A stretch of DNA of 64,000 nt from Panopea generosa (lineage: Eukaryota > Mollusca > Bivalvia > Adapedonta > Hiatellidae), in contig CM055911.1 in the NCBI GenBank assembly GCA_029582155.1, positions 28,804,014 to 28,868,013 of the forward strand, in the 5' to 3' direction. Of this stretch, positions 2,684 through 36,490 are shown one piece after another. Each line of letters opens with the position of its first letter. Within the stretch, counting starts at the first letter, position 1. The notes beneath the pieces were generated by a model. It made no database searches. It saw only the letters and a program-made list of their open reading frames with translations, and was not told where the DNA came from. The position numbers and the translations under genes were made by a program.

Positions 2684-2727
2684 AACACAACAGTGAATTT
2701 CTCGAAAAACTCTTTTTTCCAAAAACT
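2684..2727 (+). repeat. Left terminal inverted repeat of the 9.6-kb element
   Basis: About 44 bp beginning AACACAACAGTGAATTTCTC and ending in CCAAAAACT. It matches the reverse complement of 12238-12281 except for a 2-bp AC gap, a C/T change and T-run length. Confidence 0.85.
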
Positions 2728-2728
2728 G

Positions 2729-2814
2729 TCTTCAAACTGGGATACTTTGTCAATAAAAATAACTGAAGAATAAACTTCAGTTATTTTTATTGACAAAGTA
2801 TCCCAGTTTGAAGA
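2729..2814. repeat. Perfect 40-bp-arm hairpin in the left subterminal region
   Basis: Arms 2729-2768 and 2775-2814 are exact reverse complements, separated by a 6-base AATAAA loop. The arm begins TCTTCAAACTGGG and ends AACTGAAG. It sits immediately inside the left terminal inverted repeat. Confidence 0.95.
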
Positions 2815-3229
2815 GTATGACTGTGCGATCGTAAAAAGGTAACCAAAAGCGTTATCAATTGCCGATTTATGTCACAATTATAATCTAAAGACCCCCAAAA
2901 TGAATGCTTTTTCACTGGAAAGTCGTTTTGTCCAAGTTGGAGAGATAAATTTCCAATAGGAATTTCTAATTTCCAAATTGGAATCAGAAATCTATTTTTA
3001 GAATTGGCCAATGGGAACCGAGGTTTTCAATACTGATATCGGTGTAATTTAATTGGAAAGTGCCGGTGTCACGATATATTCACACGTACTACGGAAAGTT
3101 CACGCTTTATGGGTGAACAATTATGCTTTTTTCATCTGGTGTTATTTTAAGTTATGTATTGATATTTAAAGGATTTGTTTCATTATGTCTAAACTTTAAA
3201 TTGCTCAAGGTCAGAAGAAATAGTTTGTC
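2815..3229. other. Left subterminal region with TCCAATTGGA-like motifs
   Basis: No gene seen. Between about 2930 and 3055 there are several half or whole copies of the palindrome TCCAATTGGA (for example TTTCCAATAGGAA, TTTCCAAATTGGAA, TTAATTGGAAA). The same motif is dense near the other end of the 9.6-kb element (11945-12110), so it may be a subterminal transposase-binding motif. Confidence 0.5.
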
Positions 3230-3710
3230 CAATAAAATGTTTAAAATCACATTTAATATCGAACAATATTGACCAAATGTGCGGTTTTATACTCAATGCG
3301 TTCTTTTTGAAACCTTAATTCTCGAAAGATACTCAAGAAAGAAACAAGAAAAACTGACAAAACTCATTTGATATAATACATTTTCAATCGGTCATATAGC
3401 ACAGTTACCAATAAATTAAGTTTTAATCGAAAAGAAATCATCCATAATTTACTCATTTCCGAACAATGTATTTTTTTCGGCATCAAATGGTTCTCTTCAA
3501 AACATTAATTCACGAAAGATATAGAAAATACCAATATGAATTCTTCACAATAACCAATTGGTATACTATATTTTCAATCGCCGATACCTTTAAAAGTGAT
3601 CTTTATCAGCTTAAATTGATAAAATAAAATTACTGTTCCTCAAAAATATATCCATTTCCGAAAATCAACATTTCTCATTGTTACTACGCGCGTACCGTTC
3701 AGAAAGATCT
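3230..3710. repeat. Degenerate ~190-bp tandem repeat (2-3 copies)
   Basis: The block AATTC(T/A)CGAAAGATA occurs near 3318 and 3507, followed in both cases by TTTTCAATCG and a CCGAT/GTCAT stretch. A third partial copy follows near 3640-3710 (TTCCG, CGTTCAGAAAGAT). Copies are strongly diverged. Confidence 0.55.
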
Positions 3711-4557
3711 GGACCCTAAATAAACGATGTTAATTATTTTATTTTATGACCTTTAAGAACGCAAGTTTTATATATCATTCAACAACAAAAATATAAAAAT
3801 ATTTTTCATTGTGTTTTCAGAGTAATATAAGAGATTAGATCCAGGTATTTGTTTCACAATATTTTGCCTCGCTTTCGAAAAATCTAGTCGTTAATTTGAC
3901 AACATACAAATCATTATGTTTTTAATAGATATACTAATTTTCTATAAAAAATGAACAATGGGGAATTTGAAACTATTTATAAAATAAAGATTAACAGGCT
4001 GCAGAAATATACGAGTGCTTTTGATCAGTAATTTATGTTTAATTTGACATGTTCAATGTTTGATGTCATATTTACATATATAAACTTTTCAGAAATTCAC
4101 ATCTTTACTAATTTAAAGTTTTAAAATTAAGTGCAGTGTAAGAAAATCATATGTCAACTAAAATATTGTGTATATATAAATAAGAAAATCTAATGCTGTG
4201 TAATTTAAAATCTAGCGTTGAGTAAAGATGTGTATGGAGTGAGAAAATCAAGTGTCGCGTATAAAAATAAAGTGTCAAACAAGAAAATTGAATGTTCTGT
4301 AAGGATGTTGAGTATATACAGATTAAAAAGTCTAGTGCACAGTAAGAAAAATATACAGTCAAGTAAGGATTAAGTGAGAAAATCTAGCGTCCCATATGAA
4401 ATTATAGTGTCAAAGAAGGAATTTGAATGTTGTGTTATGATGTTGATTAAATATAGATTATAAAATCTAGTGCCCAGGAAGAAAAATCTATAGTAAAGTA
4501 ACGATGTTGTGTATCGAGTGAGAAAAACTAGTGTTGTGTATAAAAATATAATGTTAA

Positions 4558-6176
4558 AGACCCAACATCCGATCAGACTATCGGATGTAAATTAGTTGCT
4601 CTGCAGGGCGTGTTTTATCAACTGGGAGTGTATAATATGGTCTAACAATAGAACAGTGATAATAGCAGACAGCAAAATGTTTGTAAAACAATGCTGAAGG
4701 TTTACATTGTAACTGATACAGGAATGTTGACTCTGGGGTCAATATCACATCCCACTTTAGCATTAGGGACTACAGGGTCTTTAATTAATCATTATCAGGT
4801 AATTACTGTTTTATCAACACTATTAAGTGATGTGATAATGTTGTTGATTGATATCAAAGTAATTATGTGTATGAACATATGTGCCTAATAATTTTAAACC
4901 ACAATTCAAGCATTATAATCAGTCTAACAGATATGCCCAAAATCCCTATATTCAAGTTGGTATAGCCCATTATGAATCATTAAGTACGATTTGGAGGGAA
5001 ATTAAAATACATAGATATGTTACATGTTATGTGCTGATATTTTTGTCACTTTTAGTGACGGAAATAAGAACTTACAATTATATTCATACTTGGATATTAT
5101 ATTAATACTGGGATGTTATTGATAAAAAAAGTAATTATCAACACTTTGTTGAATATATTAGGAATTAGACTTGAACTAATGTTGATGTGATTAAAAATTG
5201 CAAAAGGTGTTTTGATCAACACATTACCTAGAGTAATAGAGACTGTGCTAATAATAAACTTTAATTAATGTTGGTGTTTTATCATGCATGTGTATTAATT
5301 GTAAATTATTAATTGTGGTGATTATGAACAATGCTAAGGCCGCGCCTATCAAAAACAAAACAAAAAGTGAAAAAAATCATTAACAAATTTGGTTCCTGTT
5401 ATAACAATGTAATACACGGAGGAAGATAAAACACTTCAACTTCATTTAAGCAGAAATCATGATGAATAAATCAGTTGTAATTAAGAATTTACTGATAATT
5501 AATTAAGAAAAAGACCATAAATGTTTTTTGATTGGGTAATTTTAAGTCACTTTCAAAAACTTTCATTAGACAAAAACCGTTTATATATATATATATATAT
5601 ATATTCATGATATTCCTGGTGAAAGCCCTATCTTTAGTTTTAATCTAAAACTATCATTTCTGTTTTATGTGATATAATACACATGTAAAATGATTCATTC
5701 ATGTGGCACCATAATTTTTTTTAATGAAGAATAGGAACAATTAGGAACTGTTGGTGATTAAAAAAAGGATAATAGAAGGAATCTTTTAAAAGTTTGGTAA
5801 GTCTTGCATGATTTGTAGTTTGTATTTAACTACTATATCTTGAATACAGCCATGTGAGCTACAGCATGCCAGTTTGTTTACAAACATTGGTCACATGACA
5901 AATATTGACCCGTTTGCTCCTCCCACAAAATTCAAATTTCTCTTTAACTGATTGTCTGTTGAAAGCAATAAGTAATAAATTATTGCAGATTTTATTCTGA
6001 AATTTTCAGGAACTGTGAGTAATATTAAGACTATGTTACATGACAAATTTCAAATTTTTTAATCCATGAACTTATTTTAGATTTGAAAATTACTCTCCCA
6101 GATCTGAATGTGTTTTGAAAAATAAGGGAAAACACTCCCACCGCCATTACCTCCCTTTTATACCCAGGTTGGGTCT
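4558..6176. mobile_element. 1.6-kb TTAA-flanked (piggyBac-like) non-autonomous element
   Basis: The ends are AGACCCAAC and GTTGGGTCT, exact inverted repeats, each flanked by TTAA (4554-4557 and 6177-6180). The flanks rejoin as ATGTTAAATAAG, which fits the surrounding 144-bp repeat (ATAGTGTCAAATAAG in sister copies) and so gives an inferred empty site. TTAA target duplication is typical of piggyBac transposons. The terminal repeat is short, and no transposase was recognised; the interior has only short frames and TTGATTA-rich text. Confidence 0.7.
5578..5603. repeat. (TA)n microsatellite
   Basis: An uninterrupted run of about 12 TA dinucleotides inside the TTAA-flanked element. Confidence 0.95.
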
Positions 6177-6180
6177 TTAA

Positions 6181-6850
6181 ATAAGAAATTTGAAAGTAGT
6201 ATAGTGATGTTGAGTTAATATAGATTAGAATATCTAATGCCCAGTAAAAAAAATCTATAGTCAAATAAGGATGTTGTGTATTGATAGAGAAAATGTGTCA
6301 CGAATAAAAATATAGTATCAAACAAAAAATGTGAATGTTGTGTAAGATTGTTGAGTAAATATAGATTAGAAAATCTAGTGCCCAGTAAAAAAAAGTCTAT
6401 AGTCAAATAAGGATGATGTGTATCGATTGAGAAAATGTTGTGTTGCGAATAAAAATATAGTGTCAAATAAGAAATTTGAATGTTGTGTAAGAATGTTGAG
6501 TAAATATAGATTAGAAAATCTAGTGCCCAGTAAGAAAAATATATAGTCAAGCAAGAATGTTGTGTATGGAGTGGGAAAATCTAGTGTCGCGTATAAAATT
6601 ATAGTGTCAAATAAAGAATTTTAATGTTGGGTAAGGATGTTGAGTATATATAGATTAGAAAATTTAGTGGTCAGCAAGAAAAAATATATAGTCGAGTTAG
6701 GATGTTGTGTATCGAAAGAAAAAATGTGGTGTTGCGTATGAAATATAGTGTCAAATAAGGAATTTTAATGTTGTGTAAGGATGTTGAGTATATATAGATT
6801 AGAAATTCTAGTACCCAGTAAGAATATTGAATATCCAAAATCTTTATTTG
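6181..6850 (+). repeat. 144-bp tandem repeat in the foldback centre
   Basis: The block TTGAGTAAATATAGATTAGA recurs (as GAGTTAAT/GAGTAAAT/GAGTATAT) at 6212, 6353, 6498, 6642 and 6786, giving spacings of 141-145 bp. Each copy holds CCAGTAA, TCTATAGTCAA and GTGTCAAATAA blocks. About three more diverged copies lie at 4170-4553 and inverted ones at 6850-7230. Confidence 0.85.
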
Positions 6851-7689
6851 AAACTTTATTTTCATACGCAACACTAAATTTTCTTAATTTGATACACAAA
6901 ATCCTTACATGATTATAGACTTTTCTTACTGGTTACTAGAATTTCTAATCTATATATACTCACCATCCTTACCCAACATTCTTTATTTGACACTATATTT
7001 TCATACGCGACACTAGATTTTCTCAATCGATACACAACATCCTAATTTTACTATATATTTTTCTTACTGTGCACTAGACTTTTTAATCTGTATATACTCA
7101 ACATCCTTACAGAACTTTAAATTTTCTTGTTTGACACTATATTTTCATAAGCGACACTTGATTTTCTCACTCCATACATATCTTTACTCAACGCTAGATT
7201 TTAAATACTCGGCACACGATTTTCTTATTTATATACACAATAATTTAGTTGACATATGATTTTCGTACACCACACTTAAATGTTAAAACTTAAAATTAGT
7301 AAAGTTGTGAATTTCTAAAAAGTGTATACATGTATATGTAAATATGACATCACACCTTGAAGGTTTCAAATTAAACATAAATTACTCATCAAAAGCACTC
7401 GTAAATTTCTGCAGCATCGTAAATTTCTTTATTTTAAAAATATTTTCAATTTCCCCATTGTTCATTTTTTATAGAAAATTAATATATCTGTAAAAAAACA
7501 TAATGATTTGTATGTTGTCAAATTATCAACTAGATTTTTCGAAAGCGAGGCAAATTATTGTGAAACAAATACTTGGATTTAATTTCTTATATTTCTCCGA
7601 AAACACACTGAAAAACATTGTTATATGTTTGTTGTTGAATGATATATTAAACTTGCATTCTTAAAGGTCATAAAATAAACATCACGGAA

Positions 7690-7775
7690 ACTGTTGCTGG
7701 GCGGGGATTCGAACTCACGACCCCTGGATTGATAGCCAGATGCGTAACAGATTGAACTAATTAGGCCCCGCTTGT
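7690..7775 (-). mobile_element. tRNA-like SINE head (family 1), truncated
   Basis: Read on the minus strand the segment has a tRNA A-box-like part (TTAGTTCAATCTGTTACGC) and a B box (GTGAGTTCGAATCCCC). It resembles the tRNA-derived heads at 26195-26280 and 28135-28208. The long SINE body of those copies is missing. It abuts the outer edge of the foldback right arm. Confidence 0.65.
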
Positions 7776-8230
7776 ACTGATAAATTTAACAAAAAAAAAC
7801 AACAACACAAAATAACAACAAAGAAAAAACATTGTTGTACAGATACATATAACAATGTTCTTTTATTAAGCTTCTATTGATATTACTTCTATATTAAAAA
7901 GATTTTATCTCTCTTGTTCTTTTTACACTTTTTTAAAAATAACTCGTATAATTTATATATATTGATCGTTTCCTTTAAATTAAGACTGGCGGTCTTTGTT
8001 GTTCTTATGACCCCACCCGTAGAGATTACTTGGTCATTTGGTAACATTGTTATTACAATAACGCACTGTCACTGATAAGCTCACGCTGCGGGACGCCATA
8101 GTGTCCGAAGTTTTTAATACATGCAATTCCGGCATGGACTCGTTATTTACATTTGTGCCATTTCTTTCTGAAAAGAGAGATATTTATAATATTTTGGGGC
8201 AACCAAAGTAAATATACTTTACAACTAATA
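7776..8230. other. Unique AT-rich spacer
   Basis: Nothing coding seen. It holds an A-rich stretch (7790-7830) and leads into the trinucleotide array. Confidence 0.6.
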
Positions 8231-8258
8231 CCACAACTACCACTATTACTATTTCTAT

Positions 8259-8302
<44 letters not shown>

Positions 8303-8420
8303 TTACTACTACTACTACTGATGATGCTGTTAATACTACTACTACTTATGTTGCTGCTGTTAATACTACTACTACTACTACTACTACTTTTAATGCTGCT
8401 GCTGCTACTGTTACTACTAC

Positions 8421-8454
<34 letters not shown>

Positions 8455-8745
8455 GTTGCTGTTACTACTACTACTACTACTGCTGCTGCTGCTTCTGCTG
8501 TCACTACTTCTACTAATACTACTACTACTACTGTTGCTGCTGCTGCTACTGTTAATACTACTTCTAGTACTACTACTACTGCTGCTGCTGTTAATACTAC
8601 TACTACTCGTACTACTTCTACTACTGCTGCTGCTGCTGCTTTTGTAAATACAACTTCTACTACTACTATTACTACTACTTCTGCTGCTGCTGTGAATACT
8701 ACTACTACTACTACTACTACTATTACTACTACTTCTACTACTACA

Positions 8746-8781
<36 letters not shown>

Positions 8782-8838
8782 GCTGGTGCCGTTAATACTA
8801 CTACTACTACTATTACTACTTCTACTACTACTACTACA

Positions 8839-8877
<39 letters not shown>

Positions 8878-8989
8878 GTTGCTGCTGCTGCTGTTAGTAC
8901 AACTACAATAGCTACTTCTATTATTGCTGCTCATGATACTACTGCTACAACAACGATTACTGCTGCTACTGCTGCTGCTGCTGTTAATA

Positions 8990-9028
<39 letters not shown>

Positions 9029-9984
9029 TAACCAATACTTCTACTTCAAGTACTATTGTTGCTGCTACTGCTGTTTATATTACTACTACTGTTTCTACTA
9101 CTACTACTATTACTGTTACTGCTGCTGCTGTTACTACAACTATTATAACTACTTCTACTATTGCTGCTGCTAATACTACTACTACAACTTCTACTGCTGC
9201 TGCTGCTGCTGATACTACTATTACTACTACTGCTTCTGCTGCTGTTACCACTACTTCTACTTCTGGTACTATTGCTGCTGCTACTGCTGTTAATAATACT
9301 ACTACAATTACTACTATTACTAAGACTACTACTACTACTACTCCTACTGCTGCTGCTTCTGCTGCTGTTTATACTACTACTACTACTAGAACAACTACTG
9401 CTGCTGCTGCTGTTTATACTACAACTACTACTACTACTACTACTACTGCTGCTGTTTTTACTGTTGTAAATATTACTACTATACTACTACTATCGATGCT
9501 GCTGCTTTTGCTGTTGTAAATATTGCTACCATACTACTACTACTGCTGCTGGTGCTGCTGTTAATACTACTACTACTGCTGCCGCTGCTGCTGGTGTTGT
9601 TAATACTACTACTACTGCTGATGATACTGCTTCTGCTACTCTTTCTACAAATACTACTACTACCACTTCTGCTGCTGCTGTTAATACTGCTATTACTACT
9701 TCTTGTACTACTACTGCTACTATTACTACTGCTGCTGCTTGTGCTTCTGTTGATACTACTACTACTACTACTACTGTTACTGCTGCAGTTAATACTACTA
9801 CTACTACTTCTGCTGCTGCTGCTACTGCTACTACTACTACTGCTGCTGTAAATGTTACCACTATTACTACTACTTCTACTGTTGCTGCTGCTGTTACTTC
9901 TACTACTACTCCTACTACTACTACTACTTCTAAAACTATTGCTACTACTACTACTACTACTACTTCTACTACTACTACTACTAT

Positions 9985-10046
<62 letters not shown>

Positions 10047-10068
10047 ATACTAATACTACTACTACTAT

Positions 10069-10106
<38 letters not shown>

Positions 10107-10315
10107 TACTACTATTATTACTACTACTTTTTATACTGCTGCTATTTCTACTACTACTACTACATCTTCTACTACTACTACTAATACTCTTATACTACTA
10201 CTACAACAACAACTACTACTACTACTACTACTACTATTATTATGACTACTACAACTGCAACAAATACTGCTGCTGCTACTACTTCTACTTCTACTACTAC
10301 TACTACTATTACTAT

Positions 10316-10363
<48 letters not shown>

Positions 10364-10970
10364 TACAACAACTACTACTACTATTACTACTACTACTTCT
10401 AATACTGATTCCGCTACTATTGCTGCTGCTGTTGATACTACTACTTCTTTTATTACCACTACTACTGCTGCTACTAGTACAATTACTACTACTGCTGCTG
10501 TTGCTGCTGATGTTATTACTGCTACTTCTACTGCTGCTGCTGCTGCTTCTGCTGTTTATACTCATTTAATACTACTGCTTCTGCTGCTGTTAATACTACT
10601 ACTTCTACTGCTGCTGCTGCTGCTACTGCTGCTGTTAATACTACTACTACTATTACTACTACTACTACTACAACTACAACTACTACTACTACTACTACTA
10701 ATACTACTAATACTACTATTACTACTACTACTACTACTACTGCTACACCTTCTGCTGCTACTGTTAATACTACTACTACTTCTACTACTTCTACTACTAC
10801 TACTTCTACTACTACTACTAATTCTACTGCTGCTTCTGCTGCTGCTGCTGCTGTTACTACAACTACTACTACTGCTGCTGCTGCTGTTAATACTATTAGT
10901 ACTACTACTAATAATAATACTCCTTCTATTGCTGCTGCTGCTGCTGTTAATACTTCAACTTATACTACTG

Positions 10971-11003
<33 letters not shown>

Positions 11004-11655
11004 TTAATACTACTACTACGACTACTACCAGTACTGCTGCTGCTGCTGCTGTTAATACTACTTCTACTTCTACTACTGTTACTACTTCAATTGCTGCTGC
11101 TGCTGTTGCTGCTGTTAATACTACCACTACTGCTGCTGCTGTTGTTGCTGCTGTTAATACTACTACTACTATTTCTTCTACTTCTAGTACTACTGCTTCT
11201 GCTGCTGCTGCTGTTAATACTATTACTACTTCTTCTACTACCACTACCACAGCCACTACCACTACCACAACCACTACCACTACCACTGCTATTATAACTT
11301 CAACCACCACCACCACCATCGCCACCACTACTACAACTACCATCACCACCGTCACTACTACTACAACTACTACTACCATCGCAACCGTCACCACTACTAC
11401 TACTACTACTACTATTACTACTCGTATTACCACCAACACTACTACTACTACCACCATCGCTACTACTTCTACTACTATAACAACTACCGACACCACCACT
11501 GCTACTACGACTACTACAACTACTTCTACTATTACAACTACTGCTACTACTATCATTATTACTACTGCTATTACTACTACTTCTGCTACTACTACTACGA
11601 CTACTGCTACTGCTGCTACTACTGGTGTTACTGTTGCTATTGTTATTTCTGCCAC
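8231..11655. repeat. 3.4-kb compound trinucleotide array (ACT/GCT)
   Basis: The interval is almost wholly built of ACT (TAC/CTA) and GCT (TGC/CTG) triplets, with recurring junctions of the form GCTGCTGTTAATACTACT. Near 11240-11520 it shifts to ACC/ACCATC triplets. Because the period is three, it leaves long open frames on both strands that read as poly-Leu, poly-Ser, poly-Thr or poly-Val; these are artefacts of the repeat. A and GC content alternate in blocks, suggesting a higher-order unit of ACT block, GCT block and GTTAAT link. Confidence 0.97.
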
Positions 11656-11920
11656 TGTGTACACTACACGCACGCACAAATATAAATGCTTCTTTTGTGT
11701 TTGTTACTGTCAATACTACTTCTAGTTTTAATGCACTTGTATGCACGCACATGCATTCACGCGCATGCTGCATATAGAATCGTTCAAACGCACGTACGCT
11801 TCACTCACACTGACGGACACACAAACGCACTTACACAAGCACCAAAGCTGCACTCACATACAAGCACATGCCCACATTCACTCACACACATACACATGCT
11901 CCTACTCTATTCGTACACAA
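11656..11920 (+). repeat. Degenerate CA-rich repeat
   Basis: CACA, CACGCAC and CATGCAC words dominate (for example ACTCACACTGACGGACACAC). This looks like a decayed CA microsatellite following the trinucleotide array. The short frames here are low-complexity. Confidence 0.7.
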
Positions 11921-11929
11921 AATAATTGA

Positions 11930-11991
11930 TCTATAAATAGAATCGTCCAATTGGATTGTTTACATTCCAATCGGACGATTCTATCTATAGA
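11930..11991. repeat. 26-bp-arm hairpin in the right subterminal region
   Basis: Arms 11930-11955 and 11966-11991 are reverse complements with two mismatches, and share ATAGAATCGTCC / GGACGATTCTAT. The loop is about 10 bases. It mirrors the hairpin near the left end of the same element. Confidence 0.85.
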
Positions 11992-12237
11992 ATCTATCAA
12001 TAGAATCTTCCAATTGGACCCTTTATATTCCCATTGGAAACTTTGATACTTGTGTTTCCAATTGTAATTGACCGCTATAAAACCATTATTTCCCGTTGGA
12101 AACTATTGCTCATTTGAATTTTAATTCCATTTATCTCAGTATTTTACGAGCTGTAATTTTGAATTTAACTGAAAGATAGTTATAATTGTCCAAGAGTATT
12201 AAGTTTATAACATTAATGTTCATTATGAAAAAAAAGT
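11992..12237. other. Right subterminal region of the 9.6-kb element
   Basis: Carries repeated TCCAATTGGA-type motifs (TTCCAATTGGACCC, CCCATTGGAAAC, TTTCCAATTG, CCCGTTGGAAACT). The part 12048-12170 is similar, in the same orientation, to 52468-52600, including CAGTATTTTACG, so this end belongs to a dispersed family. Confidence 0.6.
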
Positions 12238-12281
12238 TTTTGGAAAAAAAAAGTTTTTCAAGAAATTCACTGTGTTGTGTT
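12238..12281 (-). repeat. Right terminal inverted repeat of the 9.6-kb element
   Basis: The reverse complement begins AACACAACACAGTGAATTTC and continues into GAAAAACTTTTT and CCAAAAAC, matching the left end at 2684-2727. It is followed directly by TCAG and the resumed satellite. Confidence 0.85.
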
Positions 12282-13770
12282 TCAGTAAGGACGGTGGTTC
12301 TACTCATAATTGATATGATAGAATCATCAGTAAGGACGGTAGTTCTACTTATACTCGATCTTATAGAATTACTCAGTAAGGACGGTGGTTTTACTCATAC
12401 TCGATCTGATAGAATTACTCAGCAAGGACGGTGGTTCTACTCATATTCGATCTGATAGAATTACTCAGTATAGACGGTGGTTCTACTCATACTCGATCTG
12501 ATATAATAACTCAGTAAAGACGGGGGTTCTACTAATATTCGATCAGGTAGAATTATTCAGTTTGCAAGGTGTTTTTTCTTATATTGTATCTTACAGAATT
12601 ACTCTGTGTTGATGGTTGTTCTACTCATATTCGATCAGATAAAATTACTCAGTGAGGACAATGGTTGTACTCATATTCGATGTGACAGAATTACTCAGTA
12701 AGGACGGTGGTTTTACTCATACTCGATCTGATATAATAACTCAATAAAGACGATGGTTTTACTCATACTCGATCTGATATAATTAGTCAGTGAGGACGGT
12801 GTTTCTACTCATATTCGATCTGATATAATAACTCAGTAAAGACGCTGGTTTTACTCATATTCGATCTGATATAATAACTCAGTAAGGACGGTGAATTTAC
12901 TCATACTCGATCTGATAGAATAACTCAGTAAAGAAGGTGGTTCTACTAATATTCGATCAGGTAGAATTATTCAGTTTGCAAGGTGGTTCTTCTTATATTG
13001 TATCTTATAGAATTACTCTGTGTTGATGGTTGTTCTACTCATGTTCGATCTGATAAAATTACTCAGTGAGGACAATGGTTGTACTCATATTCGATGTGAT
13101 AAAATTACTCAGTAAGGACGGTGGTTTTACTCATACTCGATCTGATATAATTACTCAGTAAAGACGCTGGTTTTACTCATATTCGATCTGATAAAATTAC
13201 TCAGTAAAGACGGTGGTTGTACTCATACTCGATCTGATATAATAACTCAGTAAGAACGGTGGATTTACTCATACTCGATCTGATAGAATAACTCAGTAAA
13301 GACGGTGGTTCTACTAATATTCGATCAGGTAGAATTATTCAGTTTGCAAGGTGGTTCTACCTATATTGCATCTAATAAAATTACTCTGTGTTGATGGTTG
13401 TTCTACTCATATTCGATCTTATACAATTACTCAGTGAGGACGATGGTTGTACTCATATTCGATCTGATAGAATTACTCAGTGAGGACGGTGGTTTTACTT
13501 ATATTCGATCTAATAGAATTACTCAGTACCTAAGGACAATGGTTCTACTCTTATTCGATCTGATATAATTAGTCAGTGAGGACGGTGTTTCTACTCATAT
13601 TTGATCTTATAAAATTACTTAGTAAGGACGGTGGTTCTACTCATATTCGATCTGATATAATTAATCAGTGAGGACGATCGTTGTATTCATATTCGATCGG
13701 ATAGAAATACTCAGTGATAAAAGTGGTTCTACTCTTTTTAGATCTGATAGAATAACCCAGTGATGATGTT
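12282..13770 (+). repeat. 46-bp satellite, variant A (middle array)
   Basis: The same monomer as at 1-2683, about 32 copies. A diagnostic variant monomer (CAGTTTGCAAGGTG) recurs at about 12559, 12973 and 13341, that is at 414 and 368 bp, exactly 9 and 8 monomers, showing a higher-order unit. Confidence 0.95.
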
Positions 13771-16700
13771 GGTTATACTTATACTCGATATGGTAGAATG
13801 ACACAATCAGGACGGTGGTTATACTTATACTCGATATGGTAGAATGACCCAGTCAGGACGGTGGTTATACTTATACTGGATATGGTAGAATGACCCAGTA
13901 AGGACGGTGGTTATACTTATACTGGATATGGTAGAATGACCCAGTCAGGACGGTGGTTATACTTATACTCGATATGGTAGAATGACACAATCTGGACGGT
14001 GGTTATACTTATACTGGATATGGTAGAATGACCCAGTCAGGACGGTGGTTATACTTATACTGGATATGGTAGAATGACCCAGTCAGGACGGTGGTTATAC
14101 TTATACTCGATATGGTAGAATGACACAATCTGGACGGTGGTTATACTTATACTGGATATGGTAGAATGACCCAGTCAGGACGGTGGTTATACTTATACTG
14201 GATATGGTAGAATGACCCAGTCAGGACGGTGGTTATACTTATACTCGATATGGTAGAATGACCCAGTCAGGACGGTGGTTATACTTATACTGGATATGGT
14301 AGAATGACCCAGTCAGGACGGTGGTTATACTTATACTCTATATGGTAGAATGACCCAGTCAGGACGGTGGTTATACTTATACTGGATATGATAGAATGAC
14401 CCAGTCAGGACGGTGGTTATACTTATACTGGTTATGGTAGAATGGCCCAGTAAGGACGGTGGTTATACTAATACTGGATATGATAGAATGACCCAGTCAA
14501 GACGGTGGTTATACTTATACTGGATATGGTAGAATGACCCAGTCAGGACGGTGGTTATACTTATACTGGATATGGTAGAATGACCCAGTAAGGACGGTGG
14601 TTATACTTCTACTCGATATGATAGAATGACCCATTCAGGACGGTGGTTATACTTATACTGGTTATGGTAGAATGACCCAGTAAGGACGGTGGTTATACTT
14701 ATACTGGATATGGTAGGATGACCCAGTCAGGACGGTGGTTATACTTATACTGGATATGGTAGAATGACCAAGTCAGGACAGTGATTATACTTATACTCGA
14801 TATGGTAGAATGACCCAGTAATGACGGTGGTTATACTTATACTGGATATGGTAGAATGACCCAGTCAGGACGGTGGTTATACTTATACTGGATATGGTAG
14901 AATGACCCAGTCAGGACGGTGGTTATACTTATACTCGATATGGTAGGATGACCCAGTCAGGACGGTGGTTATACTTATACTCGATATGGTAGAATGACCC
15001 AGTCAGGACGGTGGTTATACTTATACTGGATATGGTAGAATGACCCAGTCAGGACGGTGGTTATACTTATACTGGATATGATAGAATGAACCAGTCAAGA
15101 CGGTGGTTATCCTTATACTCGATATGGTAGGATGACCCAGTCAGGACGGTAGTTATACTCGATATGATAGAATGACTCAGTCAGGACGGTCGTTATACTT
15201 ATACTGGATATGGTAGAATGACCCAGTCAAGACGGTGGTTATCCTTATACTCGATATGGTAGGATGACCCAGTCAGGACGGTGGTTATGCTTATACTGGA
15301 TATGGTAGGATGACCCAGTCAGGACGGTGGTTATACTTATACTCTATATGGTAGAATGACCCAGTCAGGACGGTGGTTATACTTATACTGGATATGATAG
15401 AATGACCCAGTCAGGACGGTGGTTATACGTATACTGGTTATCGTAGAATGACCCAGTAAGGACGGTGGTTATACTTATACTGGATATGATAGAATGACCC
15501 AGTCAAGACGGTGGTTATCCTTATACTCGATATGGTAGAATGACCCAGTAAGGACGGTGGTTATACTTATACTCGATATGATAGAATGACCCAGTCAGGA
15601 CGGTGGTTATACTTATACTGGTTATGGTAGAATGACCCAGTAAGGACGGTGGTAATACTTATACTGGATATGGTAGAATGACCCAGTCAGGACGGTGGTT
15701 ATACTTATACTGGATATGGTAGAATGACCCAGTAAGGACGGTGGTTATACTTCTACTCGATATGGTAGGATGACCCAATAAGGACGGTGGTTATGCTTAT
15801 ACTCGATATGGTAGGATGACCCAGTAAGGACGGTGGTTATACTTATACTCGATTTGGTAGGATGACCCAGTAAGGACGGTGGTTATACTTATTTGCGATA
15901 TGGTAGGATGACCCAGTCAGGACGGTGGTTATACTTATACTGGATATGGTAGGATGACCCAGTCAGGACGGTGTTTATCCTTATACTCGATATGGTAGGA
16001 TGACTCAGTCAGGACGGTGGTTATCCTTATACTGGATATTGTAGGATGACCCAGTCAGGACGGTGGTAATACTTATACTGGATATGGTAGAATGACTCAG
16101 TCAGGACGGTGGTTATACTTATACTCGATTTGATAGGATGACCCAGTAAGGACGGTGGTTATACTTATTTGCGATATGGTAGGATGACCCAGTCAGGACG
16201 GTGGTTATCCTTATACTCGATATGGTAGAATGACCCAGTCAGGACGGTGGTTATCCTTATACTGGATATGGTAGAATGACCCAGTCAGGACGGTGGTTAT
16301 ACTTATACTCGATATGGTAGGATGACCCAGTCAGGACGGTGGTTATACTTATACTCGATATGGTAGGATGACCCAGTCAGGACGGTGGTTATACTTATAC
16401 TCGATATGGTAGAATGACCCAGTCAGGACGGTGGTTATACTTATACTCTATATGGTAGAATGACCCAGTCAGGACGGTGGTTATACTTATACTGGATATG
16501 ATAGAATGACCCAGTCAGGACGGTGGTTATACTTATACTGGTTATGGTAGAATGGCCCAGTAAGGACGGTGGTTATACTAATACTGGATATGATAGAATG
16601 ACCCAGTCAAGACGGTGGTTATACTTATACTGGATATGGTAGAATGACCCAGTCAGGACGGTGGTTATACTTATACTGGATATGGTAGAATGACCCAGTA

Positions 16701-19700
16701 AGGACGGTGGTTATACTTCTACTCGATATGATAGAATGACCCATTCAGGACGGTGGTTATACTTATACTGGTTATGGTAAAATGACCCAGTAAGGACGGT
16801 GGTTATACTTATACTGGATATGGTAGGATGACCCAGTCAGGACGGTGGTTATACTTATACTGGATATGGTAGAATGACCAAGTCAGGACAGTGATTATAC
16901 TTATACTCGATATGGTAGAATGACCCAGTAATGACGGTGGTTATACTTATACTGGATATGGTAGAATGACCCAGTCAGGACGGTGGTTATACTTATACTG
17001 GATATGGTAGAATGACCCAGTCAGGACGGTGGTTATACTTATACTCGATATGGTAGGATGACCCAGTCAGGACGGTGGTTATACTTATACTCGATATGGT
17101 AGAATGACCCAGTCAGGACGGTGGTTATACTTATACTGGATATGGTAGAATGACCCAGTCAGGACGGTGGTTATACTTATACTGGATATGGTAGAATGAC
17201 CCAGTCAGGACGGTGGTTATACTTATACTGGATATGATAGAATGAACCAGTCAAGACGGTGGTTATCCTTATACTCGATATGGTAGGATGACCCAGTCAG
17301 GACGGAAGTTATACTCGATATGATAGAATGACTCAGTCAGGACGGTCGTTATACTTATACTGGATATGGTAGAATGACCCAGTCAAGACGGTGGTTATCC
17401 TTATACTCGATATGGTAGGATGACCCAGTCAGGACGGTGGTTATGCTTATACTGGATATGGTAGGATGACCCAGTCAGGACGGTGGTTATACTTATACTC
17501 TATATGGTAGAATGACCCAGTCAGGACGGTGGTTATACTTATACTGGATATGATAGAATGACCCAGTCAGGACGGTGGTTATACTTATACTGGTTATCGT
17601 AGAATGACCCAGTAAGGACGGTGGTTATACTTATACTGGATATGATAGAATGACCCAGTCAAGACGGTGGTTATCCTTATACTCGATATGGTAGAATGAC
17701 CCAGTAAGGACGGTGGTTATACTTATACTCGATATGATAGAATGATCCAGTCAGGACGGTGGTTATACTTATACTGGTTATGGTAGAATGACCCAGTAAG
17801 GACGGTGGTAATACTTATACTGGATATGGTAGAATGACCCAGTCAGGACGGTGGTTATACTTATACTGGATATGGTAGAATGACCCAGTAAGGACGGTGG
17901 TTATACTTATACTCGATATGGTAGGATGACCCAATAAGGACGGTGGTTATGCTTATACTCGATATGGTAGGATGACCCAGTAAGGACGGTGGTTATACTT
18001 ATACTCGATTTGGTAGGATGACCCAGTAAGGACGGTGGTTATACTTATTTGCGATATGGTAGGATGACCCAGTCAGGACGGTGGTTATACTTATACTGGA
18101 TATGGTAGGATGACCCAGTCAGGACGGTGTTGATCCTTATACTCGATATGGTAGGATGACTCAGTCAGGACGGTGGTTATCCTTATACTGGATATTGTAG
18201 GATGACCCAGTCAGGACGGTGGTAATACTTATACTGGATATGGTAGAATGACTCAGTCAGGACGGTGGTTATACTTATACTCGATTTGGTAGGATGACCC
18301 AGTAAGGACGGTGGTTATACTTATTTGCGATATGGTAGGATGACCCAGTCAGGACGGTGGTTATCCTTATACTCGATATGGTAGAATGACCCAGTCAGGA
18401 CGGTGGTTATCCTTATACTGGATATGGTAGAATGACCCAGTCAGGACGGTGGTTATACTTATACTCGATATGGTAGGATGACCCAGTCAGGACGGTGGTT
18501 ATACTTATACTCGATATGGTAGGATGACCCAGTCAGGACGGTGGTTATACTTATACTCGATATGGTAGGATGACCCAGTCAGGACGGTCGTTATACTTAT
18601 ACTCGATATGGTAGAATGACCCAGTCAAGACGGTGGTTATCCTTATACTCGATATGGTAGAATGACCCAGTAAGGACGGTGGTTATACTTATACTGGATA
18701 TGGTAGAATGACCCAGTCAGGACGGTGGTTATACTTATACTCGATATGGTAGGATGACCCAGTCAGGACGGTGGTTATACTTATACTCGATATGGTAGGA
18801 TGACCCAGTCAGGACGGTGGTTATACTTATACTCGATATGATAGAATGACCCAGTCAAGACGGTGGTTATGCTTATACTGGTTATGGTAGAATGACCCAG
18901 TCAGGACGGTGGTTATACTTATACTCGATATGGTAGAATGACCCAGTCAAGACGGTGGTTATACTTATACTCGATATGGTAGAATGACCCAGTAAGGACG
19001 GTGGTTATACTTATACTCGATATGATAGAATGACCCAGTCAGGACGGTGGTTATACTTATACTGGTTATGGTAGAATGACCCAGTAAGTACGGTGGTTAT
19101 ACTTATACTGGATATGGTAGAATGACCCAGTCAGGACGGTGGTTATACTTATACTCGATATGGTAGAATGACCCAGTCAGGACGGTGGTTATACTTATAC
19201 TCTATATGGTAGAATGACCCAGTCAGGACGGTGGTTATGCTTATACTGGATATGGTAGGATGACCCAGTCAGGACGGTGGTTATACTTATACTCTATATG
19301 GTAGAATGACCCAGTCAGGACGGTGGTTATACTTATACTGGATATGATAGAATGACCCAGTCAGGACGGTGGTTATACTTATACTGGTTATGGTAGAATG
19401 ACCCAGTAAGGACGGTGGTTATACTTATACTGGATATGATAGAATGACCCAGTCAAGAAGGTGGTTATCCTTATACTCGATATGGTAGAATGACCCAGTA
19501 AGGACGGTGGTTATACTTATACTCGATATGATAGAATGACCCTGTCAGGACGGTGGTTTTACTTATACTGGTTATGGTAGAATGTCCCAGTAAGGACGGT
19601 GGTAATACTTATACTGGATATGGTAGAATAACCCAGTCAGGACGGTGGTTATACTTATACTGGATATGGTAGAATGACCCAGTAAGGACGGTGGTTATAC

Positions 19701-22690
19701 TTATACTCGATATGGTAGAATGACCCAGTCAGGACAGTGATTATACTTATACTGGATATGGTAGAATGACCCAGTCAGGACGGTGGTTATACTTATACTG
19801 GATATGGTAGAATGACCCAGTCAGGACGGTGGTTATACTTATACTGGATATGGTAGAATGACCCAGTAAGGACGGTGGTTATACTTATACTCGATATGAT
19901 AGAATGACCCAGTCAGGACGGTGATTATACTTATACTGGATATAGTAGAATGACCCAGTCAGGACGGTGGTTATATTTATACTGGATATGGTAGGATGGC
20001 CCAGTCAGGACGGTGGTTATACTTATACTCGATATGGTAGAATGACCCAGTAAGGACGGTGGTTATGCTTATACTGGATATGGTAGGATGACCCAGTCAG
20101 GACGGTGGTTATACTTATACTGGATATGGTAGGATGACCCAGTCAGGACGGTGGTTATACTTATACTGGATATGGTAGGATGGCCCAGTCAGGACGGTGG
20201 TTATACTTATACTCGATATGGTAGAATGACCCAGTAAGGACGGTGGTTATGCTTATACTGGATATGGTAGGATGACTCAGTCAGGACGGTGGTTATACTT
20301 ATACTGGATATGGTAGAATGACCCAGTCAGGACGGTGGTTATACTTATACTGGATATGGTAGAATGACCCAGTCAGGACGGTGGTTATACTTATACTGGA
20401 TATGGTAGAATGACCCAGTAAGGACGGTGGTTATACTTATACTCGATATGATAGAATGACCCAGTCAGGACAGTGATTATACTTATACTGGATATGGTAG
20501 AATGACCCAGTCAGGACGGTGGTTATACTTATACTGGATATGGTAGGATGGCCCAGTCAGGACGGTGGTTATACTTATACTCGATATGGTAGAATGACCC
20601 AGTCAGGACGGTGGTTATGCTTATACTGGATATGGTAGGATGACCCAGTCAGGACGGTGGTTATACTTATACTGGATATGGTAGGATGACCCAGTCAGGA
20701 CGGTGGTTATACTTATACTCGATATGGTAGAATGACTCAGTAAGGACGGTGGTTATACTTATACTGGATATGGTAGGATGACCCAGTCAGGACGGTGGTT
20801 ATACTTATACTGGATATGGTAGAATGACCCAGTAAGGACGGTGGTTATACTTATACTGGATATGGTAGGATGGCCCAGTCAGGACGGTGGTTATACTTAT
20901 ACTGGATATGGTAGAATGACACAATCAGGACGGTGGTTATACTTATACTAGATATGGTAGAATGACCCAGTCAGGACGGTGGTTATACTTATACTCGATA
21001 TGGTAGAATGACCCAGTGAGGACGGTGGTTATACTTATACTCGATATGGTAGAATGACCCAGTAAGGACGGTGGTTATACTTATACTGGATATGGTAGGA
21101 TGACCCAGTCAGGACGGTGGTTATACTTATACTGGATATGGTAGGATGACACAATCAGGACGGTGGTTATACTTATACTCGATATGGTAGAATGACCCAG
21201 TCAGGACGGTGGTTATACTTATACTCGATATGGTAGGATGACCCAATAAGGACGGTGGTTATGCTTATACTCGATATGGTAGGATGACCCAGTAAGGACG
21301 GTGGTTATACTTATACTCGATTTGGTAGGATGACCCAGTAAGGACGGTGGTTATACTTATTTGCGATATGGTAGGATGACCCAGTCAGGACGGTGGTTAT
21401 ACTTATACTGGATATGGTAGGATGACCCAGTCAGGACGGTGGTTATACTTATACTCGATATGGTAGAAAAGCCCAGTCAGGACGGTGGTTATACTTATAC
21501 TCGATATGATAGGATGACCCAGTCAGGACGGTGGTTATACTTATAATGGATATGGTAGAATGACCCAGTCAGGACGGTGGTTATACTTATACTGGATATG
21601 GTAGAATGACCCAGTCAGGACGGTGGTTATACTTATACTGGATATGGGAGGATGACCCAGTCAGGACGGTGGTTATACTTATACTCGATATGATAGGATG
21701 ACCCAGTAAGGACGGTGGTTATACTTATACTCGATATGATAGGATGACCCAGTCAGGACGGTGGTTATACTTATACTCGATATGGTAGGATGACCCAGTA
21801 ATGACGGTGGTTATACTTATTCGCAATATGGTAGGATGACCCAGTCAGGACGGTAGTTATACTTATACTGGATATGGTAGAATGACCCAGTCAGGACGGT
21901 GGTTATACTTATACTGTATACGGTAGAATGACACAATCAGAACGGTGGTTATACTTATACTGTATACGGTAGGATGACCCAGTGAGGACGGTGGTTATAC
22001 TTATACTCGATATGGTAGAATTACTCAGTCAGGACAGTGGTTATACTTATACTCGATACGGTAGAATTACTCAGTCAGGACGGTAGTTATACTCGATATG
22101 GTAGAATGACCCAGTAAGGACGGTGGCTATACTTATACTCGATACAATAGAATGACCCAGTCAGGACGGTGGTTATACTTATACTCGATATGATAGGATG
22201 ACCCAGTAAGGACGGTGGTTATACTTATACTCGATATGGTAGAATGACCCAGTGAGGAAGGTGGTTTTACTTATACTCGATATGGTAGAATGACCCAGTC
22301 AGGACGGTGGTTATACTTATACTCGATATGGTAGAATGACCCATTTAGGACGGTGGTTATACTTATACTCGATACAATAGAATGACCCAGTCAGGACGGT
22401 GGTTATACTTATACTCGATATGGTAGGATGACCCAGTAAGGACGGTGGTTATACTTATACTCGATATGGTAGAATGACCCAGTGAGGACGGTGGTTTTAC
22501 TTATACTCGATATGGTAGAATGGCCCAGTCAGGACGGTGGTTATACTTATACTCGATATGGTAGAATGACCCAGTCAGGACGGTGGTTATACTTATACTC
22601 GATATGGTAGAATGACCATGTCAGGACGGTGTTTTACTTATACTCGATATGGTAGAATGACCCAGTCAAGACGGTAGTTATACTTATACT
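13770..22690 (+). repeat. 46-bp satellite, variant B (about 194 copies)
   Basis: The monomer length is again 46 bp, but with its own diagnostic bases: GGATATGGTAGAATGACCCA, then GTCAGGACGG and TTATACTTATACT. Copies are more alike than in variant A, so this array seems to have expanded more recently. Both edges grade into variant A within a monomer or two, so B arose inside A. Two sub-variants (ending CTGGATATGG or CTCGATATGG) are interspersed. Confidence 0.97.
14300..18590 (+). repeat. Two adjacent ~2.1-kb higher-order blocks in variant B
   Basis: Rare monomer variants repeat in the same order at a fixed offset. Examples are AATGGCCCAG (14442 and 16552), GACCAAGTCAGGACAGTGAT (14766 and 16876), TGGTTATCGTAGAATG (15435 and 17591), and TATTTGCGATATGG (about 15891 and 18047). 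The offset is 2110 bp in the first part and 2156 bp later, a difference of exactly one monomer. Shorter fragments of the block recur near 19240-19640 and 21230-21440. Confidence 0.88.
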
Positions 22691-23088
22691 CTATATGGTA
22701 GAATTACCCAGTTAGGACGGTGGTTCTACTCGTATTTAACCTGATAGAATTACTCAGTGAGGACGATAGTTGTATAAATACTCGATCTGATAGAATTACT
22801 CAGTTAGGACGGTGGTTCTACTCGTATTTAACCTGATAGAATTACTCAGTGAGGACGATAGTTGTATAAATACTCGATCTGATAGAATTACTCAGTTAGG
22901 ACGGTGGTTCTACTCATATTTGATCCGATAGAATTACTCATTGAAAACGATGATTGTACCCATACTCCATCTGATAAAATTACTCGGTAAGGACGGTGGT
23001 TTTACACATATTCGATCTGATATAATTACTCAGTAACACTAACTCTGTAAAGACGGCGATTCTACTCATATTTGGTCTGATAGTATGG
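22690..23088 (+). repeat. 46-bp satellite, variant A (right edge)
   Basis: About nine diverged monomers, including two copies of a two-monomer unit with AACCTGATAGAATTACTCAG and ATAGTTGTATAAATACTCG. The array fades out near 23088. Confidence 0.93.
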
Positions 23089-26009: not shown

Positions 26010-26285
26010 ACTTAGCGTAATTTTATGCCATCGAGGTCTTACAGACGATCGGTCAACTTTACCGCATTTTTCTGGAAAGTTAAGCAGTACTCAAGCACAC
26101 CTATCGCCAATAGTAACTGATTATGATCTCGCTTGAAGCAGCGGTGAGAGATAATTGACAATGAAACGCAATGTCGCATATCGTTCATCATAGAGACTGT
26201 GGCCGAGTTGGAATTCGAACTCATAACTCTTGGATTGACAGTCAGACGCACTACCGACTGAGCTAATAAGGCCCAGCGAAAAGTA
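26010..26285 (-). mobile_element. tRNA-derived SINE (family 1), near full length
   Basis: On the minus strand a tRNA-like head (26195-26280) has A box TTAGCTCAGTCGGTAGTGCG and B box ATGAGTTCGAATTCC. The anticodon position reads GTC, and the head ends near CACAGTCTC. The body then runs to the tail GGCATAAAATTACGCTAAG. The copy at 27945-28210 has the same head and body order, and 61865-62045 has the body alone. A 96-codon minus-strand frame across it is incidental. Confidence 0.8.
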
Positions 26286-27944: not shown

Positions 27945-28210
27945 TTGAATATTTTACTTCATTTTACGCCATTGAGATTTAACACACGATCAGTTAACCT
28001 AACCACTCTTCCCTTGGATGCTGTTAACCAGTACTCGAACATACCTCAGTAAGTAACTGATAACTTTCCCACTAAGTCAGTGGTGAGGACAAATGACAAT
28101 GAAATGAGACGTAATGTCAATCATCATGGAGACTGTTGTAGGCGGGATTCGAACTAACGACCCACAGATGGATAGTCAGGCGTGCTGCTGACTGAATTAA
28201 TCGAGCCAGG
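27945..28210 (-). mobile_element. tRNA-derived SINE (family 1), near full length
   Basis: On the minus strand the tRNA-like head covers about 28130-28208, with B-box-like GTTAGTTCGAATCCCGCC. The body continues to GGCGTAAAATGAAG at 27962. It aligns with the copy at 26010-26285, sharing for example AGTAACTGATA and CAGTACTCGA on the plus strand. Confidence 0.8.
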
Positions 28211-33684: not shown

Positions 33685-33755
33685 ATTGTCTCTTATGATG
33701 TGACCACGGGTAAAGAGCGAGGTTTGGGCACTTGTTAACCAGGTTGACGCTCGAA
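33685..33755 (+). repeat. Dispersed repeat fragment flanking the 39-bp array
   Basis: CTTATGATGTGA, then AGAGCGAGGTT, then ACCAGGTTGACGC resemble the left arm of the foldback at 42705-43050 (CTTATGATGTGATGACAGGG, GAGCGAGGTTGACCAGG). The 39-bp array starts at its edge. Confidence 0.55.
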
Positions 33756-35775
33756 AGAGGCGTCGTCTGCTACAAGTCGTTCCAATACGATGAAGGTGGC
33801 GTCGTCTGTTAAAAGTCGTTCCAATATTTAGAAAGTGGCGTCCTCTGCTACAAGTCGCTCCAATACGATGAAAGTGGCGTCGTCTGCTACAATTCGTTCC
33901 AATACGATCAAAGTGGCGTCGTCTGTTACCTATCATTCCAATATTTAGAAAGAGGCGTCCTCTGCTACAAGTCTCTCCAATACGATGAAGGTGGCATCGT
34001 CTGCTACAAGTCGTTCCAATAAGATGAATGTGACGTCGTCTGCTAAAAGTCGTACCAATATTAAGAAAGTGGCGTCGTCTGTTACAAGTCGTTCCAATGT
34101 TAAGAAAGTGGCGTCGTCTGATACAAGTCGTTCCAATATTAGAAAGTGGCGTCCTCTGCTACAAGTCGCTCCAATACGATGAAAGTGGCGTCGTCTGCTA
34201 CAAGTCGTTCTAATACAATGAAAGTGGCGTCGTCTGCAACAAGTCGTTCCAATACGATCAAAGTTGTGTCGTCTGTTACCAATCATTCCAATATTTAGAA
34301 AGAGTCGTCGTCTGCTACAAGTTGTTCCAATACGATCAAAGTGGCGTCGTCTGTTACCAATCGTTCCAATATTTAGAAAGAGGTGTCGTCTGCTACAAGT
34401 CGCTCCAATACGATGAAGGTGGCGTCGTCTGCGACAAGTCGTTCCAATAAGATGAAGGTGGTGTCGTCTGCTAAAAGTTGTTCCAATATTAAGAAAGTGG
34501 CGTCGTCTGTTACAAGTCGTTCTTATGTTAAGAAAGTAGAGTTGTCTGTAACAAGTCGTTCCAATATAAAGAAAGTGACGTCGTCTGCTTCAAGTCGTTC
34601 TAGTACGATCAAAGTGGCGTCGTCTGTTTCCAATCGTTCTAATATTTAGAAAGTGGTGTCCTCTGCTACAAGTCGTACCAATACGATGAAAAAGGCGTCG
34701 TCTGCTACAAGTCGTTCTAATACGACCAAAGTGGCGTCGTCTGTTACCAATCGTTCCAATATTAGAAAGTGGCGTCCTCTGCTACAAGTCGCTCCAATAC
34801 GATGAAAGTGGCGTCGTCTGCTACAAGTCGTTCTAATACAATGAAAGTGGCGTCGTCTGCAACAAGTCGTTCCAATACGATCAAAGTTGTGTCGTCTGTT
34901 ACCAATCATTCCAATATTTAGAAAGAGTCGTCGTCTGCTACAAGTTGTTCCAATACGATCAAAGTGGCGTCGTCTGTTACCAATCGTTCCAATATTTAGA
35001 AAGAGGTGTCGTCTGCTACAAGTCGCTCCAATACGATGAAGGTGGCGTCGTCTGCGACAAGTCGTTCCAATAAGATGAAGGTGGTGTCGTCTGCTAAAAG
35101 TTGTTCCAATATTAAGAAAGTGGCGTCGTCTGTTACAAGTCGTTCTTATGTTAAGAAAGTAGAGTTGTCTGTAACAAGTCGTTCCAATATAAAGAAAGTG
35201 ACGTCGTCTGCTTCAAGTCGTTCTAGTACGATCAAAGTGGCGTCGTCTGTTACCAATTGTTCTAATATTTAGAAAGTGGTGTCCTCTGCTACAAGTCGTA
35301 CCAATACGATGAAAAAGGCGTCGTCTGCTACAAGTCGTTCTAATACGATGAAAGTGGCGTCGTCTGCTACAAGTCGTTCCAATACAATGAAAGTGGCGTC
35401 GTCTGCTTCAAGTCGTTCCAGTACGATCAAAGTGGCGTCGTCTGTTACCAATCGTTCCATTATTTAAAAAGTGGCGTCCTCTGCTACAAGTCGTACCAAT
35501 ACGATGAAAGAGGCGTCGTCTGCTACAAGTCGTTCTAATACGATGAAAGTGGTGTCGTCTGCTACAAGTCGTTCCAATAAGCTGAAAGAGGCGTCGTCTG
35601 CTACAAGTCGTTCTAATACGATAAAAGTGGCGTCGTCTACTACAAGTTGTTCGTATACGATGAAAGTGGCGTCGTCTGTTACCATTTGTTCCATCATTAA
35701 GAAAGTGGCGTGCTCTGCTACAAGTCGTTCCAATACGATGAAAGTGGTGTCGTCTGCTATAATAATTGTTCAAAT
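33755..35775 (+). repeat. 39-bp minisatellite, array 1 (about 52 copies)
   Basis: The monomer carries GTGGCGTCGTCTGCTACAAG, TCGTTCCAATA and CGATGAAA and is 39 bp long. Since 39 is 13 codons, both strands have long open stretches: plus strand KVASSATSRSNTM, minus strand VLERLVADDATFI. They are broken every few copies by an AATATTTAG variant. A block of about 600 bp (34128-34730) is repeated almost exactly at 34751-35353, an offset of 623 bp. Confidence 0.95.
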
Positions 35776-36334
35776 ATTAAAGCCTCATTAAACTTCCTAA
35801 ATGCACACATTTTGATAATGACAAAAATGATTGTAATTAAATGTCTTTAAAGTATTGCTAAAACCATTCCGGTAGACCCCTTAGTGACTGTTTTTATAAA
35901 ACTGAGAAAATAAAAAACTTTGATCGAAATGTGTATATCTTAGACGAGCGGACCGAACTTTTAACATTTGTTTACAATTTTGTAATTCCGTAATGACTCG
36001 TTTGCTTTCCGACTGTACCTCCACCAGTGTTCAGAAGTACACAAATGCATACTGCAGTTGTAGTGTGCGGATTTAGACCTTTAGATAAGGGGTTCAATTA
36101 CAATATTAGTAAAGTTATGGCCTCCCTAATATGATGTATCGTTATTGGATTTTCTTTCCTTTAAAAAATATATTGATGTCTGCAATAAAACTGTATCGAA
36201 CGTAATACGAATTATATTATTTATACGTTCTGAAACACAATGAGTACTGAATACTAGTTTAGTCTAGTAACTCTTGCTAAGGATCCTCCCTTGCATATAT
36301 ATATTATTGCAGTCAATATTGAGAGGCTACCAAG
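35776..36334. other. Spacer between minisatellite arrays
   Basis: Unique AT-rich sequence; nothing recognised. Confidence 0.5.
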
Positions 36335-36490
36335 GGTGGTTTGTTTAGCTCAGTTATTAATATATCGCGTACGTGCAATAAATTAGCTCGTAGGTTCATT
36401 AATCCACTGAGGGGAATAAAGGGGATGTTCTTAAAAACAATTTAACCCCAAGCGGTTATTTAATTTTTAAACGCAACCCCTACAGTTCCT
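36335..36490 (+). mobile_element. tRNA-derived SINE-like element
   Basis: GTTTAGCTCAGTTATTAATA (A-box-like) and GCTCGTAGGTTCATTAA (B-box-like) are at tRNA spacing. The following TTCTTAAAAACAATTTAACC and AAGCGGTTA resemble the family 2 tail at 25035-25090. Confidence 0.5.

Follow-up and report, generated by a model that had tools for sequence, protein, structure and literature searches.

Several kinds of DNA element have been described to which the locus reported here can be compared, and the comparisons below are with the cited sections of the respective sources. Tetris, a foldback transposon of Drosophila virilis, generates target-site duplications (TSDs) of 8-10 bp and carries repeats within its long terminal inverted repeats (TIRs) (PMC4079207). 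The HINEs of bivalves have subterminal repeats of 11-12 bp, a preference for TT and no TSD (PMC7492417), and Sola2 elements combine AT-rich TSDs of 4 bp with TIRs of 12-21 bp (PMC3627910). Our subject is an element of 9,598 bp that spans positions 2684-12281 of a 64,000-nucleotide stretch of the genome of the bivalve Panopea generosa (contig CM055911.1, positions 28,804,014 to 28,868,013; the whole stretch is called the window below). It has TIRs, sharp boundaries and a 4-bp duplication, ends of its kind occur hundreds of times in the genome, and its interior is common to other copies. We conclude, with a probability of about 0.93, that it belongs, as a single copy, to a dispersed family of non-autonomous cut-and-paste (Class II TIR) DNA transposons.

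The element interrupts a 46-bp satellite, which Tandem Repeats Finder (TRF) reports on either side of it, at 1-2683 and 12283-23034. The last satellite letters before the element are ...ACTCAG, ending at 2683, and the element starts with AACACAAC at 2684; it terminates with GTTGTGTT at 12281, after which the satellite restarts with TCAGTAAGG. The features at the two boundaries are the following.

2680-2683, no strand: target-site duplication TCAG, left copy (sequence, paired-flank comparison)
2684-2729, plus strand: left TIR, starting with AACACAAC (end alignment; major-base fraction 0.95 against 0.42 in the flanks, 19 other left ends)
12236-12281, minus strand: right TIR, ending with GTTGTGTT (end alignment; end point common to all 20 other right ends)
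12282-12285, no strand: target-site duplication TCAG, right copy (sequence, paired-flank comparison)

The original prediction had placed the boundaries in satellite DNA and had seen TCAG repeated on both sides; positions 2684 and 12281 are upheld by the TRF arrays and the sequence, and the two TCAG copies are present where listed. When the flanks are fused with a single TCAG, the resulting 92-bp sequence gives 223 near-full-span alignments to the satellite array, 170 of them ungapped, indicating that the pre-insertion site was ordinary satellite. The prediction had also proposed to look for empty sites. A site without the element and with one target copy was found for the window copy only, by way of paralogous satellite units. 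The copy in the satellite is a base-exact insertion. The right-hand satellite shows a switch of variant near 13.8 kb by eye, and TRF counts 234 copies of 46 bp across this array.

The two ends of the window copy are inverted repeats of each other, with 44 left bases aligned to 47 right bases at 89% identity (E 4e-9). Taken as 46-bp ends they reach a global alignment score of 63, whereas pairs drawn at random from the window score 43 at most in 20,000 draws; the inverted ends of about 45 bp claimed before are therefore confirmed at about 46 bp. The left tip of the window copy does not have two bases (CA) that are present at its right end, and among the 19 other left ends the same loss is seen in L027. 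We searched the host assembly (1.47 Gb in 39 contigs) and found 677 matches to a 20-mer of the TIR with at most 2 mismatches, where the reversed pattern, used as a control, gave 41, so that the search proposed earlier did find other copies with these ends. Used as a query, the left 100 bases yielded 221 candidates, of which 40 were scored and gave 71 matches; for the right 181 bases, 40 of 594 candidates were scored.

We took 20 loci from the left-end list, which comprise 19 left ends and one right end (L034). The 19 other left ends were aligned by their internal core and compared over the TIR and 40 bp of flank; the major-base fraction is 0.95 within the TIR and 0.42 in the flank, and the exact tip AACACAAC is present in 15 of them. 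For 20 other right ends the corresponding fractions are 0.93 and 0.46, and all 20 share a common end point. The flanks of the family ends are mostly unrelated to one another, with flank columns near random, and TIRs at fixed ends are found in many copies. Where an alignment of 30 or more copies had been suggested, 39 other ends could be compared, with both ends in hand for nine copies only.

These nine are the window copy, c16, c29, c19, c33, C1, C3, C4 and C7, of which C1, C3 and C7 were paired solely through facing ends 4.2-13.0 kb apart. The duplication is exact over 4 bp in six of the nine (TCAG, TTTT, ACAG, GTAT, CCAG and TATA), and 33 of 36 bases agree over all nine pairs. Reshuffling of the right flanks in 100,000 trials reached six exact duplications in 3 trials and 33 agreeing bases in none. 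No pair carries a duplication of at least 5 bp (0/9). The TSD is of fixed length, 4 bp, and the length first claimed stands, with six pairs in exact agreement and three that differ at a single base. Three of the six exact duplications end in CAG, six being too few to call a preference.

Among known transposons, some members of Academ, Ginger and Chapaev/CMC have TSDs of about 4 bp, and their likeness to our element lies in this length. piggyBac, Kolobok and Sola3 take TTAA as their target. We considered and rejected them for the outer element, where none of the six exact targets listed above is TTAA. Maverick/Polinton elements, which have 6-bp TSDs and coding genes of their own, were rejected as well: the TSD here is 4 bp and no such gene was found in the frames scanned. 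Sola2 is alike in its 4-bp TSD and differs, by description only, in its shorter TIRs of 12-21 bp and its AT-rich TSDs (PMC3627910). No Sola transposase was found here. A search of the open-licence literature by word (not by sequence) gave no published family that could be matched to these ends, and neither a survey of bivalve transposable elements (PMC10294476) nor the Repbase paper (PMC4455052) offers, in the cited sections, TIR sequences for comparison.

Five copies (window, c16, c29, c19 and c33) were read over their full length, and all five share one order: left TIR, left unique region, 144-bp minisatellite, one or more TAC/TGC tracts, right unique region, right palindrome and right TIR. 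The modules in the window copy are as follows.

2815-3737, plus strand: left unique region of the family, with diverged direct repeats inside (79-89% identity, 14 alignments >350 bp)
3738-4162, plus strand: second left module of the family, called the arm (83-89% identity, 7 alignments >350 bp)
4163-4557, plus strand: 144-bp minisatellite array, first part (TRF, self-alignment; array in 14 of 19 other left-end loci)
6177-6830, plus strand: 144-bp minisatellite array, second part (TRF 6179-6821, 4.5 copies)
7680-8219, plus strand: module before the trinucleotide tract (present ahead of the tract, whole or in part, in several other copies, but absent there from c29 and c33)
8220-11623, plus strand: degenerate trinucleotide tract, TAC with TGC, 3.4 kb (TRF, phase composition; tract in all five read-through copies and in C4)
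11640-11929, plus strand: right unique region of the family (86-92% identity, six other right ends where read)
11930-11991, no strand: right subterminal palindrome (self-inverted in all six other right ends with this stretch read)
11992-12235, plus strand: right subterminal region with short palindromes of the CCAATTGG type (sequence search)

The left unique region is shortened in c33. The median identity of this region in other copies to the window copy is 86% over the 14 alignments listed, and identities in the range of 79-89% indicate that the family is not young. The minisatellite has 2.7 to 15.7 copies by TRF in c16, c29, c19 and c33 and is interrupted in the window copy; three of the five left-end loci in which it was not seen (L015, L018 and L031) contain stretches of N. 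Each read-through copy has one or two of the degenerate tracts, 0.55 to 4.6 kb long. The paired copies measure 3,311, 4,160, 5,225, 6,347, 7,508, 8,645, 9,598, 12,956 and 16,433 bp, so that the family ranges from 3.3 to 16.4 kb end to end with insertions counted in. The longest of these, C4 (L076), was read over 14.0 of its 16.4 kb, with a gap of roughly 1 kb inward of the left end and one of 1.4 kb ahead of the right end. It contains the arm, 8.2 minisatellite copies, two trinucleotide tracts flanking a middle module, the right unique region and the palindrome, and its right subterminal region stops about 4.4 kb short of the right TIR, so that the 16.4 kb includes an insertion. The middle module also occurs in other copies, mostly at 72-94% identity, and is missing from the window copy. 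Ten left-end copies were extended, and the right end was located in three of them (c16, c29 and c19). A 78-bp stretch elsewhere in the window, at 52464-52541, is 76% like the right subterminal region at 12055-12132, with no TIR nearby in the TIR search of the window.

This plan recalls the non-autonomous Helentrons (HINE/Pearl type) of bivalves, which have a tandem-repeat core with a microsatellite. HINE, Pearl and Cg_HINE elements enclose a minisatellite and a microsatellite between unique ends, with a palindrome at one end (PMC7492417), and our element has a similar core, with a minisatellite, a microsatellite-like tract and a right-hand palindrome. They differ, however, in having short subterminal repeats and no TSD (PMC7492417), whereas our element has terminal TIRs and a 4-bp TSD. 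With TIRs of about 46 bp at the very ends and an exact 4-bp TSD in six of nine copies, the features of a Helentron are not those found, and we regard a Helentron origin as very improbable.

Three features set the window copy apart from the others.

2729-2814, no strand: hairpin with 40-bp arms and a 6-nt loop, adjoining the left TIR (fold z -12.4)
4558-6176, no strand: nested 1.6-kb element with a 9-bp TIR AGACCCAAC, within the minisatellite (TTAA duplicated at 4554-4557 and 6177-6180)
6831-7679, minus strand: second, inverted occurrence of the arm and part of the array (6857-7679 against 3738-4548, 86% over 832 columns)

The inverted left arm of the hairpin is present in none of the 19 other left ends, and the hairpin was rejected on this ground as a functional structure of the end. 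The empty site of the nested element matches neighbouring array units without gaps at 84% over 49 bp, and we take this element to be piggyBac/Kolobok-like by its TTAA target alone. We also considered the long inverted repeat 3738-7679 as a nested foldback element and rejected it, since its left arm is a module that other copies of the family have as well, and the inverted second copy alone is peculiar to the window copy. Arm matches in the remaining copies that were read run in direct orientation, and no inverted duplicate of arm plus array was found in them, bar a weak 67% hit over 87 columns in c17. The first ~92 bp of the module at 7680-8219 (7680-7771) resemble by eye the head of a tRNA-derived SINE on the minus strand, and the same kind of head recurs at 26186-26277 and 28119-28179. 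ARAGORN reported no tRNA in the window, SINE-like heads included, and Rfam reported nothing in it.

The inverted arms bear on the comparison with Tetris, according to which our element would be a foldback of the Mutator superfamily with tandem repeats inside long TIRs. Both are non-coding TIR elements with internal tandem repeats and few complete copies, both are tied to satellite DNA, and an autonomous partner has been found for neither (PMC4079207). They differ in that our element has a 4-bp TSD, TIRs of ~46 bp and its arrays between the TIRs. The element is indeed rich in tandem repeats, non-coding and located in satellite DNA, and the window copy does contain long inverted arms; but among the copies read these long arms belong to the window copy only, apart from the one weak match in c17, the array sits between the TIRs and not within them, and in place of a TSD of 8-10 bp the pairs show none that reaches 5 bp. 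A foldback of this type is accordingly a most unlikely account of the family.

The open frames of at least 120 codons in the window element all lie within the trinucleotide tract or overlap it, apart from one of 121 codons inside the minisatellite. The long frames in 8220-11623 were dismissed as a by-product of the tract, based on its phase composition. Pfam scans, in which stops were read as X, gave nothing in the window for 2815-4557 (six frames), the nested element (three frames) or 7680-8219 (one frame). In middle or later stretches of other copies they gave no transposase in six frames of c21 (with one match below the cut-off, E 0.09) and four of the six frames of its next 3.5 kb, none in six frames of 2.3 kb of C4 and none in six frames of c24. 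Near the right-hand end of the stretch read in C4, a frame of 129 codons overlaps one of 123 codons, and c32 has a frame of 153 codons that is rich in simple repeat; all three lie outside the Pfam scan. Frames in c17, c21 and c32 resemble nested retroelements by eye. A match to polysaccharide deacetylase in c24 (L044, ~4658-4924; E 3.4e-6, which passes the curated cut-off although no single stretch does so by itself) sits inside a 168-bp tandem array, and is perhaps a piece of a gene captured and amplified within one copy.

One could suppose that the longer copies are decayed remains of a large autonomous element, whose own transposase was encoded in the middle module that is missing from the window copy. 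C4 and several unpaired copies do hold a common middle module of 2-4 kb, mostly 72-94% identical. These modules, however, have no frame of at least 120 codons outside low-complexity stretches and apparent nested retroelements, and no Pfam transposase was found in the frames scanned, the C4 frames of 129 and 123 codons lying outside that scan. We therefore regard this origin as unlikely, while giving it more weight than the Helentron and foldback alternatives. We also sampled 10 TIRs, hand-picked for spread from the first 100 of the 677 listed places, as possible starting points of an autonomous relative; the inward side is the left module in five and the right module in three, above the shuffled scores. 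The TIR core gave 6 stretches in a viral sequence collection, which we take as chance, and the one that was read (L004) lies in an apparent phage gene by eye. The TIR pattern gave 0 hits in a contig collection, and phage records held no match to the left region.

Several observations weigh against a mobile, non-autonomous family. Four of the 19 other left ends (L026, L027, L028 and L029) have altered tips, and three of the nine duplications (c33, C1 and C7) agree at 3 of 4 bases with one mismatch each. For 7 of the 10 extended left-end copies no right end was found within 10.8-14.4 kb, so that many of the copies may be truncated or interrupted, or may extend further. Among the sampled TIRs, L078 is right-like by eye and yet scores below its shuffles (16.0 against 17.0), and the inner side of L084 (G000:C3:46476144), which has a perfect TIR 20-mer, matches neither end module; L084 could be a relative, autonomous or not, or else an end that has been truncated. 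No transposase was recognised and no autonomous copy was seen in the copies and frames examined, so that the autonomous relative with a transposase asked for by the original prediction did not come to light, and the moving enzyme is one that we infer. Finally, two of the 20 right ends (L045 and L048; C18, 62 kb apart) share one right flank and so are a duplicated locus or insertions into one repeat. Another reading makes the element immobile, a segmental duplication or an assembly join with fortuitous inverted ends. The shared flank does suggest that some copies may spread by local duplication, but the near-random flank columns of the other ends, the sharp ends on both sides and the TSD argue so strongly the other way that we give this explanation almost no credence.

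The transposition that had been proposed from the one locus is instead supported by copies across the genome with fixed ends, mostly unrelated flanks and a 4-bp duplication. As the element is filled with repeats and holds no recognised gene, it is probably moved by an enzyme made elsewhere. A transposase encoded elsewhere would bind the TIRs, and perhaps the subterminal palindromes too, excise the element and insert it at a cut staggered by 4 bp, where the filling of the gaps would yield the 4-bp duplication. The tandem arrays may lengthen and shorten through slippage or unequal exchange, and such changes in array size, together with nested insertions, would account for lengths from 3.3 to 16.4 kb. 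In the window copy the TTAA element would have inserted into the minisatellite later, and two local inverted duplications would have arisen.

The copies form a new family within a known kind of transposon, with an unusually long, repeat-filled and non-coding body. A bolder hypothesis is that the AACACAACACAGTGAATTTCT ends and the 4-bp duplications mark an undescribed transposase superfamily, whose non-coding derivatives reach >10 kb through the minisatellite and trinucleotide arrays that they carry and thereby seed tandem repeats genome-wide; we consider it improbable. A single odd boundary has in this way become a repeat family that can be annotated, with ends, TSD and a map of modules. Its copies take a shared minisatellite and shared trinucleotide tracts to many sites, and the family thereby offers a natural test of the dispersal of tandem repeats by transposons. 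Elsewhere in the window, a pair of minisatellite arrays with 39-bp units occupies 33753-37200, and the second of them has a higher-order unit of 116 bp.

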